A DNA stretch of 64,000 nt, from contig DAIDMQ010000035.1 of assembly GCA_027448945.1 (NCBI GenBank), positions 1 through 64,000 of the forward strand. The letters are read 5' to 3'. This DNA comes from Gallionellaceae bacterium. Lineage in GTDB: Bacteria; Pseudomonadota; Gammaproteobacteria; Burkholderiales; Gallionellaceae. The translations under genes were made by a program, and so were the position numbers. Under the pieces are notes generated by a model. It was given only the letters and a program-made list of their open reading frames with translations. It made no database searches and was not told the origin of the DNA. Positions within the stretch are counted from its first letter, which is position 1. Each line of letters opens with the position of its first letter. This document shows, in pieces, positions 1 through 64,000 of the stretch.

Positions 1-232
1 ACGCCCCCATGGCCAGGCGCGCACCCTCGGGCGTGTCGAACGCCTGCGCCCACAGCGCCTGCTCGGCCCCCGCCTGCACCGCATGGGGTTGCAGGCGCCA
101 CCATGCTAGGCCGGCGCCGCCAACGGCGGCAGCTGCAGCCACACCCGCATACAGCGCCCAGCGTCGGCTAACGGGGGTTGCAGGATTAGCGGACAAAGAA
201 GCAACAGAAGATTCAGTGGTAGGAGCGGTCAT
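1..232 (-). CDS. TlpA-like thioredoxin-fold protein, N-terminal part (runs off window)
   Basis: Only the first 77 codons are present; the gene continues past the left edge. The start ATG (232-230) overlaps the stop of the upstream gene as ATGA, so translation is probably coupled. The visible protein has a Ser/Thr/Pro-rich start, then a twin-Arg and an Ala/Gly-rich membrane anchor (about residues 24-45), followed by WWRLQPHA and a segment ending FDTPEGARLAM. From memory this matches membrane-anchored TlpA/redoxin proteins of Comamonadaceae, which reduce periplasmic disulfides. The CXXC site would lie beyond the window, so the function is inferred. The DNA is much richer in GC than the rest of the window. 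Confidence 0.6.
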   Translation of the reverse strand, partial: MTAPTTESSVASLSANPATPVSRRWALYAGVAAAAAVGGAGLAWWRLQPHAVQAGAEQALWAQAFDTPEGARLAMGA

Positions 233-825
233 GGAACATTTTCCTGGAGCAGCCGCCGCACGGCAGTGATGTCACCGCGTGGCGACCGTCCTTTGGCATC
301 AGGGCGCAAGGCCCCGCGCAAATCGTCGAGATCGTAAATCAGCAAATGCACGCCGATCATCTCACCCAGTTCAGGGCACATGCTGCCCACGCTCAAGGCC
401 TCGACAGAATCGCCGTGGAAGCCCGGGACGGTGCGGGGTTCGTAGTCAACGTTATGGTCTATCAACGCGATCTCGGCCGATTTGGAGTCATCACAGAACA
501 ACTGCAAATAAATATCCGACAACCGGGTGGCCGTGCCACGCCATACCGCCCCCCCAAGGTGGGGCCGAAAGGCAGCCATGCGTTCCATCCAGACCAGGGC
601 CAGCTGGCGCAGGGCGCGCAATTCGCGGGGTTGGGTGTCGGCGCAAAAGAGCGCGATGTATTCGCGCACCGCGTCTTCCACCGCGTCATTGTCGGGCAGA
701 GGGGTGCGCGCTGGCAGCCCGAGCTCACGCAGGGCGCGGCGCTTGGCGGGGCCCCATTCCAGCCCCTCTTCCACGACCAGGCGGGCGGTGGTGCTGGCGA
801 TTTCGGCGCTCAATGGTGTTGGCAT
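229..825 (-). CDS. Conserved protein of unknown function, next to mpl and tlpA-like gene
   Basis: A 198-residue soluble protein without signal peptide or membrane segment. I chose the ATG at 825 (MPTPLSAEIA), since the longer in-frame extension to 918 is Pro/Gly-rich and looks like untranslated DNA. It has a helical N-terminal half (VEEGLEWGPAKRRALRELGL, then DAVREYIALFC) and an acidic C-terminal half with DHNVDYE and LLIYDLDD. I do not recognise a named family. Similar proteins occur, to my memory, beside mpl in Comamonadaceae. Its stop overlaps the start of the tlpA-like gene (ATGA), so the two form an operon divergent from mpl. GC content is high, as in its neighbours up to about 1400. Confidence 0.7.
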   Translation of the reverse strand: MPTPLSAEIASTTARLVVEEGLEWGPAKRRALRELGLPARTPLPDNDAVEDAVREYIALFCADTQPRELRALRQLALVWMERMAAFRPHLGGAVWRGTATRLSDIYLQLFCDDSKSAEIALIDHNVDYEPRTVPGFHGDSVEALSVGSMCPELGEMIGVHLLIYDLDDLRGALRPDAKGRSPRGDITAVRRLLQENVP

Positions 826-943
826 GGCAGAACCGGATGGCGTTGGAGGAGCTATTGTGGCGCCAACCCATGACAGGCAAGGTCGCCAGCCCACATGCCC
901 CGGCGCAGGCATGGCCATTGCACGCCCGCCGCCGCGACAGACA

Positions 944-985
944 CTATGTTTTTCATAGCTCTTTGCGCTTACTGTTCAAGCGTCG
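944..985 (+). repeat. Short inverted repeat with tail, Comamonadaceae-type intergenic repeat
   Basis: CTATG (944-948) and CATAG (954-958) flank a T5 loop, followed by a tail containing TTTGCGCTTACTG. This hairpin plus 'GCTNNTTGCGCTTA' tail resembles a dispersed intergenic repeat I remember from Acidovorax/Rhodoferax-type genomes. No second copy was seen in the window. It lies between the divergent unknown gene and mpl. Confidence 0.4.
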
Positions 986-1022
986 CAGGTCATTTTTTGG
1001 TTGAACCTTAGAATCTGCGCCC

Positions 1023-2372
1023 ATGCACATACACATACTCGGGATCTGCGGCACGTTCATGGGGGGCTTGGCCGCGCTGGCGCGGGAAGCAGGGCACAAG
1101 GTTACTGGCTGCGACGCCGGTGTTTACCCACCCATGAGCGATCAGCTGCGCGCCTTGGGCATCGAGCTGATCGAAGGGTTCGGAGCAGACCAGCTGGCGC
1201 TGCGCCCCGATGTGTTCGTGGTGGGCAATGTGGTCAGCCGCGCCCGGCTGGCCGACGGCAGCCCCAAGTTTCCGCTCATGGAAGCCATTCTGGACGCCGG
1301 CCTGCCCTACACCAGCGGCCCGCAGTGGCTGGCCGAGCAGGTCCTGCAAGGCCGGCATGTGCTGGCCGTTGCCGGAACCCACGGCAAGACCACCACCACG
1401 TCGATGCTGGCGTGGATATTGGAATACGCGAGCTTAAATCCCGGCTTCCTGATCGGCGGTGTACCGCAGAATTTCGGCATCTCGGCGCGCATCACCGAGT
1501 CACCGTTTTTCGTTATCGAGGCGGACGAATACGACACAGCGTTTTTCGACAAACGCTCCAAGTTCGTGCATTACCATCCACGCACCGCGATTTTGAATAA
1601 TCTGGAATTCGACCACGCCGATATTTTCGCCGATTTGAACGCCATCGAGACGCAATTCCATCATTTGGTGCGCACCATTCCCGGCGACGGATTGGTGGTG
1701 TGCAACGGGCGCGAGGAATCGCTACAACGCGTGATCAAGCGCGGGTGCTGGACGCCGGTGGAAAAATTCGGCAGCGATGACGGTTGGAATATCGACGACG
1801 GCGATATGGTGTCTCTGAACGGCAAAGCACAAGGCAGGCTGGAATGGGACTTGATGGGTGAGCATAATCGCATGAATGCGCTGGCCGCCATATCCGCCGC
1901 ACGCCATGTCGGTGTGCCTGTCGCGCAGTGCTTGGCGGCATTGACCGAATTCAAGAATGTCAAACGCCGCATGGAAGTCAAGGGTACCGTTAACGGCATT
2001 ACTGTCTATGACGACTTCGCACACCATCCGACCGCCATAGACACTACGGTTGAGGGTCTGCGTCGCAAGGTGGGTCGGGCACGTATCCTGGCGGTGCTAG
2101 AACCGCGCTCCAACACCATGAAACTGGGTGTGATGAAAGACGCCCTACCGGCAAGCTTGAAGGATGCCGATCTGGTGTTCTGTTATGCGGGCAATCTGGG
2201 GTGGGATGCGCAAGCTGCACTGGCGCCTATGGGTAACAAGGCCGTCGTGATGAGTGACCTGAATGAATTAATCTCAGCCATCACAGCGGCGGCAAAATCT
2301 GGCGATCAGATTCTGGTGATGAGTAACGGCGGCTTCGGCGGCATACATGACAAGCTGCTGAAGTCACTGTAG
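1023..2372 (+). CDS. mpl: UDP-N-acetylmuramate:L-alanyl-gamma-D-glutamyl-meso-diaminopimelate ligase
   Basis: Cytoplasmic Mur-ligase-family enzyme that re-attaches the recycled murein tripeptide to UDP-MurNAc using ATP. The 449-residue protein has the expected length. It begins with the Rossmann-like MHIHILGICGTFMGG, carries the P-loop AGTHGKTTTT at residues 117-126, then the family motifs EADEYDTAFFDKRSKF, NNLEFDHADIF and DDFAHHPTA. Codon use changes inside the gene. Up to about 1410 it is strongly GC-ending with CTG-dominated leucines; after WILEYASLN it becomes mixed, like the rest of the window. The reading frame stays intact across this point. The gene therefore looks like an in-frame fusion of two related mpl alleles, natural or from assembly. 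Confidence 0.93.
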   Translation: MHIHILGICGTFMGGLAALAREAGHKVTGCDAGVYPPMSDQLRALGIELIEGFGADQLALRPDVFVVGNVVSRARLADGSPKFPLMEAILDAGLPYTSGPQWLAEQVLQGRHVLAVAGTHGKTTTTSMLAWILEYASLNPGFLIGGVPQNFGISARITESPFFVIEADEYDTAFFDKRSKFVHYHPRTAILNNLEFDHADIFADLNAIETQFHHLVRTIPGDGLVVCNGREESLQRVIKRGCWTPVEKFGSDDGWNIDDGDMVSLNGKAQGRLEWDLMGEHNRMNALAAISAARHVGVPVAQCLAALTEFKNVKRRMEVKGTVNGITVYDDFAHHPTAIDTTVEGLRRKVGRARILAVLEPRSNTMKLGVMKDALPASLKDADLVFCYAGNLGWDAQAALAPMGNKAVVMSDLNELISAITAAAKSGDQILVMSNGGFGGIHDKLLKSL

Positions 2373-2381
2373 CCCGCGACC

Positions 2382-3785
2382 TTACTCTTCTTCTTGGTGA
2401 TCCAGACCCAGCTCCTGTATCTTGCGGGTCAGGGTATTGCGGCCCAAGCCCAATAGATTCGCGGCTTCTATGCGTCTGCCGTGGGTGAATTGCAACGCTT
2501 GCAGGATCAATACCCGCTCGAACTGCTGCGTCAGCGTATCCATGATGCGCTCGTCACCACGTTGCAATGCAGTCGCCGCATGTTGCGCCAGTGCCGTACT
2601 CCAATCCGCATCACCGCCCTTGGATCCAGAACCCTCGCCGCGCCATTCTGGCGGCAAGTCGGCGATTTCGACAATCTTGGATGGCGTCATCACAATCAGC
2701 CAGTGACACAAATTCTCCAGTTGTCTGACGTTACCCGGAAAATCTTGGGCGGCGAGATGCCGCAGCGTGGCCGCGCTTAATTGCTTTTGATCGACCGCCA
2801 GTTCGCGTGCGCTTTTCTGCAAAAAATAGGTCGCCAATAACGGGATATCTTCGCGTCGTTCGCGCAAGGGTGGCAAGCGCAAGCGGATGACGTTCAAACG
2901 ATGAAATAAGTCTTCACGGAACAAGCCCTGTTTGACACGCTCTTCCAAGTCCTGATGCGTTGCGGTGATGATGCGCACATTGGCCTTGATAGGCAGATGA
3001 CCGCCGACGCGATAGAAGTTGCCGTCAGACAATACACGCAGCAAACGTGTCTGCAATTCCGATGGCATGTCACCGATCTCATCCAGAAACAGCGTGCCGC
3101 CCTCTGCCTGCTCAAAACGTCCTCGGCGCATCGTCGCCGCACCGGTGAATGCACCGCGTTCGTGACCGAACAGTTCCGACTCCAACAAGTCCTTGGGAAT
3201 CGCTGCGGTATTGATCGCAACGAACATCTTCTCGGCACGCAGACTGTGTCGGTGCAAGGCACGGGCAACCAGCTCCTTGCCGGTACCGGATTCACCATTG
3301 ATCAACACCGTCGCGTGCGATTGCGACAATCGGCCGATGGCACGGAATACTTCCTGCATCGCGGGTGCATGGCCCAAGATGTCGGCAGCGACTTCTTGTG
3401 GCTCAACTTCGCTCGATTTGCGTTTGCTTTGCTCCAGCGCACGACCTATCAATTCGACCGCATGGTTGATATCGAAAGGCTTGGGTAGATACTCGAATGC
3501 ACCACCCTGAAACGCCGCCACGGCACTTTCCAAATCGGAGTATGCCGTCATGATGATGACGGGTATCAATGGATGGCGCTCGTGCAAGACTTGCAGGAAA
3601 TCCAAACCACTACTGCCCGGCATACGGATGTCGCTGACGACCACCTGCGGTATCTCTGTACTCAGCGCACGCAGGGCATCATCTGCCGTCGCGAAGCTCT
3701 TGAACTCGATGTCCGCACGCGCCAAGGATTTCTCCAGCACCCAACGTATGGAACGGTCATCATCTATGATCCAAACAGGTTTCAT
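2382..3785 (-). CDS. ntrC: Nitrogen regulation response regulator NtrC
   Basis: Sigma-54-dependent activator of nitrogen-assimilation promoters; phosphorylated by NtrB, it remodels RNA polymerase with ATP. The 467 residues show a receiver domain with phospho-acceptor Asp52 ([13 protein letters not shown]), an AAA+ domain with Walker A GESGTGKE at 164-171 and the sigma-54 contact loop GAFTGA at 211-216, and a C-terminal Fis-type helix-turn-helix ([20 protein letters not shown]). A GAGGA ribosome site precedes the ATG, 25 bases after ntrB. Likely target sites and a sigma-54 promoter lie upstream of glnA about 3 kb away. The gene converges on mpl with a 9-base gap. Confidence 0.95.
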
Positions 3786-3810
3786 GTATTCCTCAAATCT
3801 ACTAACTGGA

Positions 3811-4863
3811 TTAATTCGGTAAAGGCAACATCACGCTAAAACATGTTTTGCCGGGCTCGCTCTCGAACTCTATGCTGCCGTGATGCTGGCTGACAAAATC
3901 CTGGGCCAGTGTAAGCCCCAAACCATGTCCATCGGCATGACCCGACACCAATGGATAAAAGATCTTGTCGCGTAACTCTGCCGGTATGCCGGGACCGTTA
4001 TCGATGATTTGCACCAATATCGCGAGTCTATGTCGACGTCGTATCAAAGTAATCTGGCGCGCGATACGGGTGCGCAAGATGATGCGCCCCTTACCCTGCA
4101 TCGCCTGCGTCGCATTACGCACGATATTGAGCATCACCTGGATCAATTGCTCCTTGTCGCCAATCAAGTCGGGCAAGCTCAAATCATAATCGCGCTGTAT
4201 GTGCAGGCCTTCCGGCAGTTCAGCGAGAACGACACTGCGCACTCGTTCCAACACTTCATGGATATTGACTGCACTATGTCGCGTGCCGCTCTGCGGTGTG
4301 AGTAATTTCTCCATCAGGCTGCGCAAACGGTCCGCTTCCTGAATGATGACTTGCGTGTATTCACGCAAGCCCGGCTTTTCCAATTCTTGCTCCAACAACT
4401 GTGCGGCACCGCGTATACCCCCCAAGGGATTTTTGATCTCATGAGCTAAATTACGCAACAGCAATCGATTGGCCTGCGTCTGATCCAACATCTGCTCTTC
4501 GCGTGCGAGCTTGAGCGTACGATCTATAAGATGAAACTCCAACATCAAACCGGGTTGCTCAAACTGCAGTGGCGTCGCCGCACAGCGCAGGTGCAATTTG
4601 CCGTGTGCATGTGTGCCCAAGATCATGTCGTGCTCTATATAGCTGGCATTACTGGCAACCGCTTGTTGCATCGCGCAGGCCAGTTGGTCGGTGTGCACAA
4701 AGACTTGCTGCACATTGAGTCCGATAAGGTTCTTGCTGCCGACTTCGAACAAATTTTCAGCTGCCGGATTGAGGTAGACAATGCGTAGATCTACATCCAG
4801 CAGCAAGACTGCTGTGGAAAGATATTCTAGGCTAAGGATGGGAGCATCTGACATTGGTATCAT
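3811..4863 (-). CDS. ntrB: Nitrogen regulation sensor histidine kinase NtrB
   Basis: Cytoplasmic two-component kinase/phosphatase that sets NtrC phosphorylation in response to PII. It has 350 residues: an N-terminal PAS domain (LLLDVDLRIVYLNPAAENLFEVG), a HisKA domain with the H-box NLAHEIKNPLGGIRGAAQLL near residue 140, and an HATPase domain with N-box NIVRNATQAM, DNGPGIP and GHGLGL. There is no membrane segment, as expected. Two ATGs (4863 and 4854) are possible starts, with no clear ribosome site for either. It lies immediately upstream of ntrC in the same operon. Confidence 0.93.
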   Translation of the reverse strand: MIPMSDAPILSLEYLSTAVLLLDVDLRIVYLNPAAENLFEVGSKNLIGLNVQQVFVHTDQLACAMQQAVASNASYIEHDMILGTHAHGKLHLRCAATPLQFEQPGLMLEFHLIDRTLKLAREEQMLDQTQANRLLLRNLAHEIKNPLGGIRGAAQLLEQELEKPGLREYTQVIIQEADRLRSLMEKLLTPQSGTRHSAVNIHEVLERVRSVVLAELPEGLHIQRDYDLSLPDLIGDKEQLIQVMLNIVRNATQAMQGKGRIILRTRIARQITLIRRRHRLAILVQIIDNGPGIPAELRDKIFYPLVSGHADGHGLGLTLAQDFVSQHHGSIEFESEPGKTCFSVMLPLPN

Positions 4864-60949: not shown

Positions 60950-62311
60950 ATGCAGGAAAACACACTTTGGGATACATGCTTGCTTGCTTTCGAAAAGAGT
61001 CTATCCCCACAACAATTCAAGGCTTGGATCAAACCCCTGCGACTTATCAAAGAAAACGGTTCATTGGTATTGACTGCGCCGAATAGTTTCACGCTAAAAC
61101 TAGTACAAGATCGATTTTTCCGCGAAATCAGCAAACAAGCTAGTTTGATTTATTCGGCTGTGCCTAATTTTGAGTTCCGTGTGCAAGAAGCGACTACTCC
61201 TGAAAAAAATGGTCATGAAGTTAAGCCTGTCGAAGTAAAGATTGAAGCCAAACCCACCGGCAAACCCAAGATCGAAACCTCGTTTCGTGGTTATGGCAAA
61301 TTAAATTCCAGCCTTACTTTCGATAATTTTGTCATCGGAAAGGCAAACCAACTGGCCTTCGCTGCCGCGACCCAGGTCGCCGATCTACCCGGCGCTTCCT
61401 ACAACCCGCTCTTCATTTATGGCGGCGTAGGTTTAGGTAAAACCCATTTGGCGCAGGCTATCGGTAACCAGATTAAACTTAACAAACCAGAAGCTAAGAT
61501 CTGCTATATGCACGCTGAACGCTACGTTGCAGACGTGGTGCGCGCTTACCAAAGCAATAAATTCGAAGAATTCAAGCAGTACTACCATTCCCTGGATATC
61601 CTGCTAATCGATGATATCCAGTTTTTCGCGGGTAAAAACAAGACTCAGGAAGAATTTTTTTACGCTTTCAACACCTTGATCGACTCACACAAGCAAGTGA
61701 TTCTAACCAGCGACACCTTTCCCAAGGAAATCACAGGGTTAGAGACCCGCTTAGTGTCGCGTTTTGGTTGGGGTTTGACCATTTGCATAGAACCGCCAGA
61801 ATTGGAAATGCGCGTAGCTATCTTGCTAAAGAAAGCCGATTTGGGTGGTTATAAATTGGACGACACCGTAGCTTTCTTCATTGCCAAGCATGTGAATTCC
61901 AATGTACGTGAACTGGAAGGTGCGCTAAAACGTGTGGAAGCCTATGCAAAGTTCCACAAGCGCCCTATCTCGGTCGAAACAGCCAAGGAATCATTAAAAG
62001 ATATCTTGGTAGCACAAAGTCGGCAAATATCAATTGAGAATATCCAAAAGACCGTATGTGATTTTTACCGATTAAAACTTTCTGAACTGCTTTCCAAAAA
62101 ACGTACTCGGAATATTGCTAGGCCTAGACAGATTGCAATGACTTTAACCCGTGAACTCACTAGCATGAGCCTACCCGAGATAGGCGCATCATTCGGTGGT
62201 AGAGATCACTCGACGGTGATTCATGCATGTAAAACCATGGAAGAATTGAAAAGAACAGATACAACCATCAATTCTGATTACAAAATTCTATTGCAAACGT
62301 TAAAAGGATAA
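60950..62311 (+). CDS. dnaA: Chromosomal replication initiator DnaA
   Basis: ATP-dependent initiator that opens the origin. The 453 residues have domain I (LWDTCLLAFEKSLSPQQFKAWIKPL), a short linker with Lys/Pro, and an AAA+ domain with FIYGGVGLGKTHLAQAIGN (P-loop residues 158-165) and LLIDDIQFFAGK. Domain IV has the DnaA signature GGRDHSTVIHACK. No strong ribosome site was seen before the ATG. Confidence 0.97.
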   Translation: MQENTLWDTCLLAFEKSLSPQQFKAWIKPLRLIKENGSLVLTAPNSFTLKLVQDRFFREISKQASLIYSAVPNFEFRVQEATTPEKNGHEVKPVEVKIEAKPTGKPKIETSFRGYGKLNSSLTFDNFVIGKANQLAFAAATQVADLPGASYNPLFIYGGVGLGKTHLAQAIGNQIKLNKPEAKICYMHAERYVADVVRAYQSNKFEEFKQYYHSLDILLIDDIQFFAGKNKTQEEFFYAFNTLIDSHKQVILTSDTFPKEITGLETRLVSRFGWGLTICIEPPELEMRVAILLKKADLGGYKLDDTVAFFIAKHVNSNVRELEGALKRVEAYAKFHKRPISVETAKESLKDILVAQSRQISIENIQKTVCDFYRLKLSELLSKKRTRNIARPRQIAMTLTRELTSMSLPEIGASFGGRDHSTVIHACKTMEELKRTDTTINSDYKILLQTLKG

Positions 62312-62506
62312 CTTGGTTGAAAAGCTGTTGATAGTTTGTTGGTAAAGTGGGTGTTAAAGTTGAAGCTTAAAATTATTAACAAGTGCCAACATTTAATACA
62401 GAATTACATAACAGTAAAATTAGTAGTTAATTTGATGTTTAATAAATGAATTTTTAAGAGATAACAAAATCGGCCTCCTTTATTAGTCTTATTAGGTATA
62501 TATATT
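62312..62506. other. AT-rich dnaA-dnaN gap, possible part of the origin
   Basis: 195 bases, strongly AT-rich from about 62390 to 62505, suitable for an unwinding element. I found no exact DnaA box here; only poor matches such as TGTTGATAG near 62324. The origin placement is inferred from gene order. Confidence 0.45.
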
Positions 62507-63613
62507 ATGTTTATTAAAAAAACAGACAAACAAACTGTATTGAAACCTCTGCAGGTCGTAATCGGTATTGTTGAACGTAAACAGACCTTACCTATCCTGT
62601 CCAACGTATTGATGGAAAAGGAAGCTGGCAAGATACGTTTCACTGCAACTGACCTTGAAATACAAATCACCACAACCGTTGAAACTAATGACGAAGATCA
62701 CACTCCTGCTTCTATTACTGTAGGAGGTAAGAAGCTGCAAGAAATTCTGCGTATCCTGCCCGAGCAAAGCGAGATATCTATAGAAATTTCTGAAAACAAA
62801 GCTCAGATTAAAGCTAACAAAAGCAAATTCAGTTTGCAGACATTGCCTTCGCAAGACTTTCCTAAACTGAGCAACCAGTTGATGGACCCGAAGAAAATTA
62901 TCCTGTCACAATCCAGACTCAAAGCGTTGTTGCAATCAGTGCAATACGCGATGGCACAACAAGACGTGCGTTACTACTTGAATGGCGTATTGCTGATCAT
63001 AGAAAGAAATAAACTGAAGGCGGTTGCCACTGACGGACACCGTTTGGCATACAACGTTGTAGAGATTGAAGGTAGCTTTGAAAAGCACGACATTATCTTG
63101 CCGCGTAAAGCCATCATCGAACTATGTAAGCTACTCAATGACAACGATGACTCAATCGAAATTGAGTTTTCAACACAGCAAGTAAAAGCTGAATTTTCTG
63201 GTATCACATTGATTACAAAAGTAATAGACGGGAAATTTCCGGATTATGAGCGCGTAATACCTAAATACAGCAATCATTTATTAATGAACCGCATTCAGGT
63301 TCAACAAGCTTTGCAACGTGCGGCCATCCTTTCAAATGAGAAATTCCGTGGTGTACGTTTTGTACTAACTGAAAAGAAATTAACCATCATCAGTAGTAAT
63401 AGCGAACAAGAAGAAGCACAAGAAGAGATAGAGACCGATTATCACGGTGAAGCAATCGATATAGGTTTTAACGTTAATTATCTATTGGATGGACTAAACA
63501 ACATCTCAGGTGAGGTTGCGACCTTCTCGTTTGGTGATCCTAATAGTTCTATCCTAATCACTACGGGTGACACTTCAGACTTCCGTTATGTTGTGATGCC
63601 AATGCGTATTTAG
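62507..63613 (+). CDS. dnaN: DNA polymerase III beta sliding clamp
   Basis: Ring-shaped clamp that holds the polymerase on DNA. The 368 residues form three repeated domains. Seen are QTVLKPLQVVIGIVERKQTLPILSNVL, FTATDLEIQI, KLKAVATDGHRLAYN, GKFPDYERVIP and the C-terminal SSILITTGDTSDFRYVVMPMRI. Standard. Confidence 0.97.
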   Translation: MFIKKTDKQTVLKPLQVVIGIVERKQTLPILSNVLMEKEAGKIRFTATDLEIQITTTVETNDEDHTPASITVGGKKLQEILRILPEQSEISIEISENKAQIKANKSKFSLQTLPSQDFPKLSNQLMDPKKIILSQSRLKALLQSVQYAMAQQDVRYYLNGVLLIIERNKLKAVATDGHRLAYNVVEIEGSFEKHDIILPRKAIIELCKLLNDNDDSIEIEFSTQQVKAEFSGITLITKVIDGKFPDYERVIPKYSNHLLMNRIQVQQALQRAAILSNEKFRGVRFVLTEKKLTIISSNSEQEEAQEEIETDYHGEAIDIGFNVNYLLDGLNNISGEVATFSFGDPNSSILITTGDTSDFRYVVMPMRI

Positions 63614-63640
63614 GTAAACAAGTTATACTCAAGCAGTATC

Positions 63641-63656
63641 TGTTCCACGTGAAACA
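63641..63656. other. parS-like centromere site 2
   Basis: TGTTCCACGTGAAACA differs from the parS consensus TGTTTCACGTGAAACA at one base (position 5). It lies in the dnaN-gyrB gap, 21 bases before the gyrB start, close to the origin. Confidence 0.85.
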
Positions 63657-63676
63657 AAAAGTCAGGAAAGTAAAAA

Positions 63677-64000
63677 ATGAGTGATTACGATTCAACGAGC
63701 ATCAAAGTTCTAAAGGGCTTAGAAGCTGTTAGAAAACGTCCCGGTATGTACATTGGTGATACCAATGACGGTACCGGTTTACATCACATGGTTTTTGAAG
63801 CTGTAGATAATGCAGTTGATGAAGCTTTGGCGGGCCATTGCGACGAGATCAATGTGATCATTCATGCGGATAATTCCATTAGCGTTAGTGATAACGGCCG
63901 TGGTATCCCAACTGATATTCATAAGGAAGAGAATCGTTCAGCGGCAGAAGTCATTATGACTATCTTGCATGCTGGCGGTAAATTTGACAGCAACTCATAT
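63677..64000 (+). CDS. gyrB: DNA gyrase subunit B, N-terminal part (runs off window)
   Basis: The first 108 codons of gyrase B, the ATPase subunit that powers negative supercoiling. The translation shows [29 protein letters not shown], the GHKL ATP-site blocks [20 protein letters not shown] and [14 protein letters not shown], and [11 protein letters not shown]. An AGGA ribosome site precedes the ATG. The rest of the gene lies past the right edge. Confidence 0.97.

Follow-up and report, generated by a model that had tools for sequence, protein, structure and literature searches.

Interspecies chimeric scaffolds, with differing phylogenetic profiles on either side of the join, have been described in metagenome assemblies (PMC7111523). 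Chimeric genes are also reported from pangenome catalogues, with regions that match divergent taxa and a small overlap that matches both, and their authors present them as possible misassemblies (PMC12108083, mSphere 2025). We report that contig C35 of the Gallionellaceae genome G000 likewise has sequences of two organisms joined; the likeness to what PMC7111523 describes, where paired-read support and coverage serve as further tests, lies in the phylogenetic profile. The two-taxon pattern is also the one described in PMC12108083, with Lachnospiraceae and Veillonella there, and with Gallionellaceae and Comamonadaceae in the mpl gene of C35. Compared with the ligase modelled by TIGR01081, the C35 frame is matched over the full range of residues 2-449 and is a composite of two families' genes. 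Almost certainly, nothing new in kind is present and the locus represents a data-quality problem, not new biology. Specifically, one housekeeping gene is chimeric and two genes are foreign in a genome rated as 99.98% complete and 1.21% contaminated (42 contigs, 2,451,482 bases). Using the C35 mpl in a phylogeny, or reading the TlpA-like gene as a Gallionellaceae gene, would mislead, and when such signals appear at contig ends a misjoin should be suspected first.

The window, i.e. the whole stretch of 64,000 nucleotides that was analysed, corresponds to bases 1-64000 of contig C35 (76,602 bp), and its base 1 is the first base of the contig. Towards the right end of the window (61500-64000) the GC content goes down to 0.37-0.40, which is below the rest. 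The foreign piece forms the tip of the contig; a single junction is seen and the contig ends inside the foreign piece (Table 1).

Table 1. Features at the left end of contig C35
Feature	Position	Strand	Basis
Foreign tip, Comamonadaceae type, GC 0.65, Comamonadaceae gene order	1..1378		blastn, collinear genomes
TlpA-like thioredoxin-family protein, N-terminal part (77 aa), cut by the contig end	2..232	-	similarity to L056 and L059
Conserved protein, no assigned family, divergent from mpl	229..825	-	start at 825 inferred from the L056 homologue; the listed open reading frame extends to 918
mpl open frame, chimeric	1023..2372	+	TIGR01081 match
Junction interval in P-loop codons	1379..1411	+	breakpoint scan
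Native Gallionellaceae-type sequence: mpl C-terminal part, then four genes on the minus strand	1412..6920		gene order as in L003; identity

Two family affinities within one mpl frame

The mpl frame has no stop and its product is UDP-N-acetylmuramate:L-alanyl-gamma-D-glutamyl-meso-diaminopimelate ligase (TIGR01081, 703.9 bits at a cut-off of 388.7), which acts in murein peptide recycling. The original prediction placed a switch in composition near 1410 inside mpl with the frame kept, and this was borne out: the GC content of bases 1-1400 is 0.647, whereas 306 overlapping windows of 1.4 kb across 1401-64000 average 0.490 (sd 0.030) and peak at 0.574, and the best breakpoint (see below) is close to the predicted position. 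Within mpl, GC3 is 0.824 over residues 1-125 and 0.672 over residues 136-449. Among 112 mpl genes of other genomes a drop as large is present in two, L113 and L106, both from the same genus; by itself it is uncommon, not unique, and composition alone is insufficient. The case for two origins is made by family affinity, not by composition.

For the comparison, 80 of the 584 loci coding for a relative of the full-length Mpl protein were kept, and 21 of the 80 constitute the Comamonadaceae-type list (one, L009, is titled only Burkholderiales). The original prediction suggested that the two halves of mpl be compared separately, with a shared best family counting against a chimera, and the halves go to different families. 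Over the N-terminal 125 residues of Mpl, identity reaches 93.6% with Comamonadaceae and no more than 70.7% with Gallionellaceae; over the C-terminal 314 residues, it reaches 86.9% with Gallionellaceae (the best being L001, a Sideroxydans MAG) and no more than 64.5% with the 21 Comamonadaceae-type loci. The same swap is seen at the DNA level. With blastn, the best match to 1023-1406 is from Comamonadaceae (84.1%) and the best by score to 1420-2372 is the Gallionellaceae locus L001 (77.4%). Upstream of mpl, bases 1-1022 match 26 of the 80 loci, i.e. all 21 of the Comamonadaceae type (65.7-77.7%) and five others (L026, L076, L037, L022 over 101 bases and L066 over 50 bases), and give no match in any of L001-L006. 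Downstream, bases 2373-3900 match two of the 80 loci, L003 and L006; the former, a Gallionella sp. MAG, has the gene order of the native part in Table 1, where the minus-strand genes after mpl are presumably NtrC-like, NtrB-like, DUF4124-like and GlnA-like. Eight plasmid records gave a match, every one inside 1022-1410.

None of 28 same-genus mpl loci has a Comamonadaceae-type N-terminus and none is hybrid, and the longest match of bases 1-1000 to 36 same-genus genomes is 41 bases (up to six candidates per genome were scored). This lack of a counterpart in the other species compared would also be compatible with a recent event in this one. A search of G000 for a second native mpl gave none; the other three matches are 26-33% identical and located on contig C16, and we infer that they are Mur-ligase-like paralogues.

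The rows of the phylogenetic trees were selected from the collected loci: 21 of the Comamonadaceae type, 17 of the Gallionellaceae type and 13 others. In the left-half tree the window sequence is positioned inside the Comamonadaceae group with SH-aLRT support of 95 (protein) and 98 (DNA), and forcing it among the Gallionellaceae is rejected (AU p = 2e-5 for protein and 3e-5 for DNA). In the right-half tree it belongs to a supported set of 19 rows, comprising the 17 Gallionellaceae, one other row and the window itself (support 99 for protein and 98 for DNA). Placing the right half with Comamonadaceae gave AU p = 0.118 (protein) and 0.067 (DNA), i.e. no formal rejection, and holding it strictly with the 17 Gallionellaceae (DNA) costs 28 log units with p = 0.212 and is not rejected either. 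Judged by identity, the Gallionellaceae affinity of the right half is clear, although the AU test is non-significant.

The breakpoint was scanned per base against the 21 Comamonadaceae-type and 17 Gallionellaceae-type mpl genes. The best break is after base 1400, with all positions of the junction interval within 3 log units, and none of 5000 permutations reached the observed statistic. In 75-base bins, all five left ones favour Comamonadaceae, while every bin from 1398 on favours Gallionellaceae. The break interval is inside GTHGKTTTTSMLAW, the GTHGKTTTT codons, which we take to be the P-loop, in agreement with the predicted closeness of the switch to these codons. Through base 1400, the longest exact run to a Comamonadaceae mpl is 1374-1408 (L059, Acidovorax) and the longest to a Gallionellaceae mpl is 1389-1418 (L095 and L004). 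Consequently, an exact run of 20 bases, 1389-1408, is common to the proxies of both parents (stand-ins, not the true parents), and the best break is inside this run. At the protein level the break corresponds to residues 119-130; the Mur ligase N-terminal domain covers residues 2-107 and the middle domain starts at 116. Taken together, bases 1 to approximately 1400 are of Comamonadaceae type, the rest of mpl and the next genes are of Gallionellaceae type, and there is a single breakpoint.

The left flank and the expected native neighbour of mpl

The genes to the left of mpl had been described as TlpA-like and unknown, and as Comamonadaceae-like; both descriptions agree with our data, given the match of all 21 Comamonadaceae-type loci to this part and the gene order shared with them. 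At the corresponding place, L056 and L059 have sequence with 77% and 68% identity, respectively, to the truncated TlpA-like fragment, and the L056 protein is 194 amino acids long with a CPPC motif; the fragment itself gave no Pfam match. The neighbouring protein matched neither Pfam nor NCBIfam. All 19 Comamonadaceae-type loci that were compared (of the 21) have a homologue of its gene, 63-80% identical, located upstream of mpl and on the minus strand, at a distance from mpl of 2.5 kb in L024 and at most 0.6 kb in the other loci. In three of these 19 (L056, L059 and L018) a TlpA-like gene is the next one after this homologue. Among 399 genomes drawn from the order (G000 included), 15 gave a match at E 1e-60. 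Apart from G000, the two best both belong to genus g112 of family f49 and show collinearity across 295-1400 and 307-1400 with 75-76% identity, in a set that did not include the donor itself. The left mpl piece differs by at least approximately 16% at the DNA level from every Comamonadaceae mpl compared.

To describe what normally precedes mpl, we used a Gallionellaceae-side set of 35 loci (L001-L006 and L095-L123; a few are of other families or untitled), with at most 1.5 kb of upstream DNA for most of them. In 29 of the 35, a DUF486 gene precedes mpl at a distance of at most 0.6 kb, often after an FKBP-type gene; the other six have no DUF486 beside mpl. The metH gene is upstream of mpl in six of the 35, ahead of DUF486 in L003, L004, L107, L108 and L120, and alone in L005. 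In G000, a protein search for DUF486 was empty; the same search was positive in 22 of 24 same-genus genomes (in one of them by a 37-residue piece), and the two that lack it, G011 and G015, are not chimeric at mpl. Since DUF486 is missing from these two genomes and from beside mpl in six of the 35 loci, its absence in G000 could be real. A protein search for the FKBP gene, run without a positive control, was also empty in G000, and a DNA search for a native mpl start elsewhere in the genome, using the L003 upstream genes and N-terminus, returned only the C35 copy (68%).

On contig C1, metH runs off the 3' end inside an open frame of 793 codons. The point matching this cut is located 2.8 kb (L003) and 1.6 kb (L005) before mpl, and the gene preceding metH on C1, presumably polyphosphate-kinase-like, is directly upstream of mpl in L099. 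The gene order in these relatives makes C1 the probable native neighbour to the left of mpl, with a gap in between.

Contig ends and the origin of the join

Of the 80 readable contig ends of G000, 79 were compared. Thirty pairs of ends have identical terminal runs of 139-141 bases (exactly 141 in 14 pairs), and five more pairs overlap end-to-start by 19, 19, 126, 141 and 141 bases; the terminal run of the C35 left end is common to no other compared end. Overlaps of 139-141 bases are what a de Bruijn assembler leaves behind when k is close to 141; MEGAHIT, for example, starts from k 21 and has 141 as its default final k. Fourteen of the 30 pairs were inspected by eye and have the appearance of repeats or intergenic stretches, save the C35/C4 pair. 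Here, the C4 5' end (L132:1-141) is the exact reverse complement of the last 141 bases of C35 (L202:2860-3000), and the two contigs split leuS, such that C35 stops at model position 302 and C4 resumes at 334, approximately 32 codons on. No second copy of the C4 part of leuS was found in G000. As leuS is essential, a fold-back interrupting it is very unlikely to be biology and very likely an artefact, and for this reason one contig end or more in this assembly has a false join, with C35 itself involved.

The predicted recombinant or chimeric nature of the left end is accordingly supported, and of these two options a misjoined assembly agrees better with the evidence than recombination does. Given the two-family origin, the single breakpoint, the position at a contig end, the native flank that was not found, the end overlaps and the other nonsense join, we are highly confident that the join is artificial and was made by the assembler or through chimeric reads or a chimeric library, most likely as the product of a de Bruijn assembler. 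An artificial join accounts for all observations, whereas recombination needs several coincidences. We suggest that a Comamonadaceae organism was present in the same sample and that the mpl copies of both organisms would have had a short stretch of identical bases within the P-loop codons. Through this stretch, the assembler path could have passed from the Gallionellaceae mpl into the Comamonadaceae mpl, run on for approximately 1.4 kb of Comamonadaceae sequence, and ended there; in this reading the join would have arisen outside a cell. That the frame is kept counts against an artefact, but a misjoin at a conserved motif would keep the frame too. Because the shared run, of at least 20 bases in the parents' proxies, is shorter than the final k of approximately 141, the join would have had to form at a smaller k or through local extension, or else come from a chimeric read. 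The latter fits a variant of the artificial join in which the template was switched at the shared run while the library was being prepared or amplified, and the resulting molecule or read was then assembled faithfully. Fold-back joins such as that at the C35/C4 leuS boundary are of the sort made by amplification, and the persistence of the join despite the long final k would be accounted for by a read that contains it; however, the chimeric molecules would have to be present at a coverage sufficient to be kept, and we consider this variant possible but rather unlikely.

Real homologous recombination would mean that the Gallionellaceae lineage acquired a Comamonadaceae fragment reaching from the upstream genes through the first third of mpl, with a crossover at the P-loop, and thereby a working hybrid Mpl. 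The hybrid is in frame, the junction is where the two genes have an identical base run, and the break is just past the N-terminal domain, at the start of the middle domain, so the hybrid could fold; the product also fits TIGR01081 from residue 2 to 449. Moreover, the lack of DUF486 in two of the 24 same-genus genomes, both non-chimeric, means that a missing neighbour alone proves nothing. Against recombination, the contig stops within the foreign piece and thus shows no second crossover; neither DUF486 nor a native mpl start was found elsewhere in G000, metH ends at a contig break on C1, and the mosaic is seen in none of the 28 same-genus mpl loci. The divergence of at least approximately 16% from the compared Comamonadaceae mpl genes gives no age for a transfer. 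Overall, we find recombination very improbable, and there is equally little reason to expect a natural hybrid Mpl, with a Comamonadaceae N-terminal domain fused in frame to the native ATPase and ligase part. An ordinary swing in composition within an mpl of single origin has a precedent in the equal GC3 drop of the two genes among 112; it is contradicted by the swap in family identity, the left-half tree, the breakpoint statistic and the gene order, and its probability is close to nil.

Two further observations concern other contig ends of G000. Families of ends with a common terminus of 139-141 bases comprise C13, C19, C20, C21 and C22, on the one hand, and C8, C9, C18 and C25, on the other, suggesting dispersed repeats that break the assembly. 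The C33 5' end (L161:1-2375) has a GC content of 0.61-0.65 and an open gene of the filamentous-haemagglutinin type; this end could be a native adhesin or a further foreign tip, and its terminal 3 kb gave some match in 10 of 37 genomes (G000 included).
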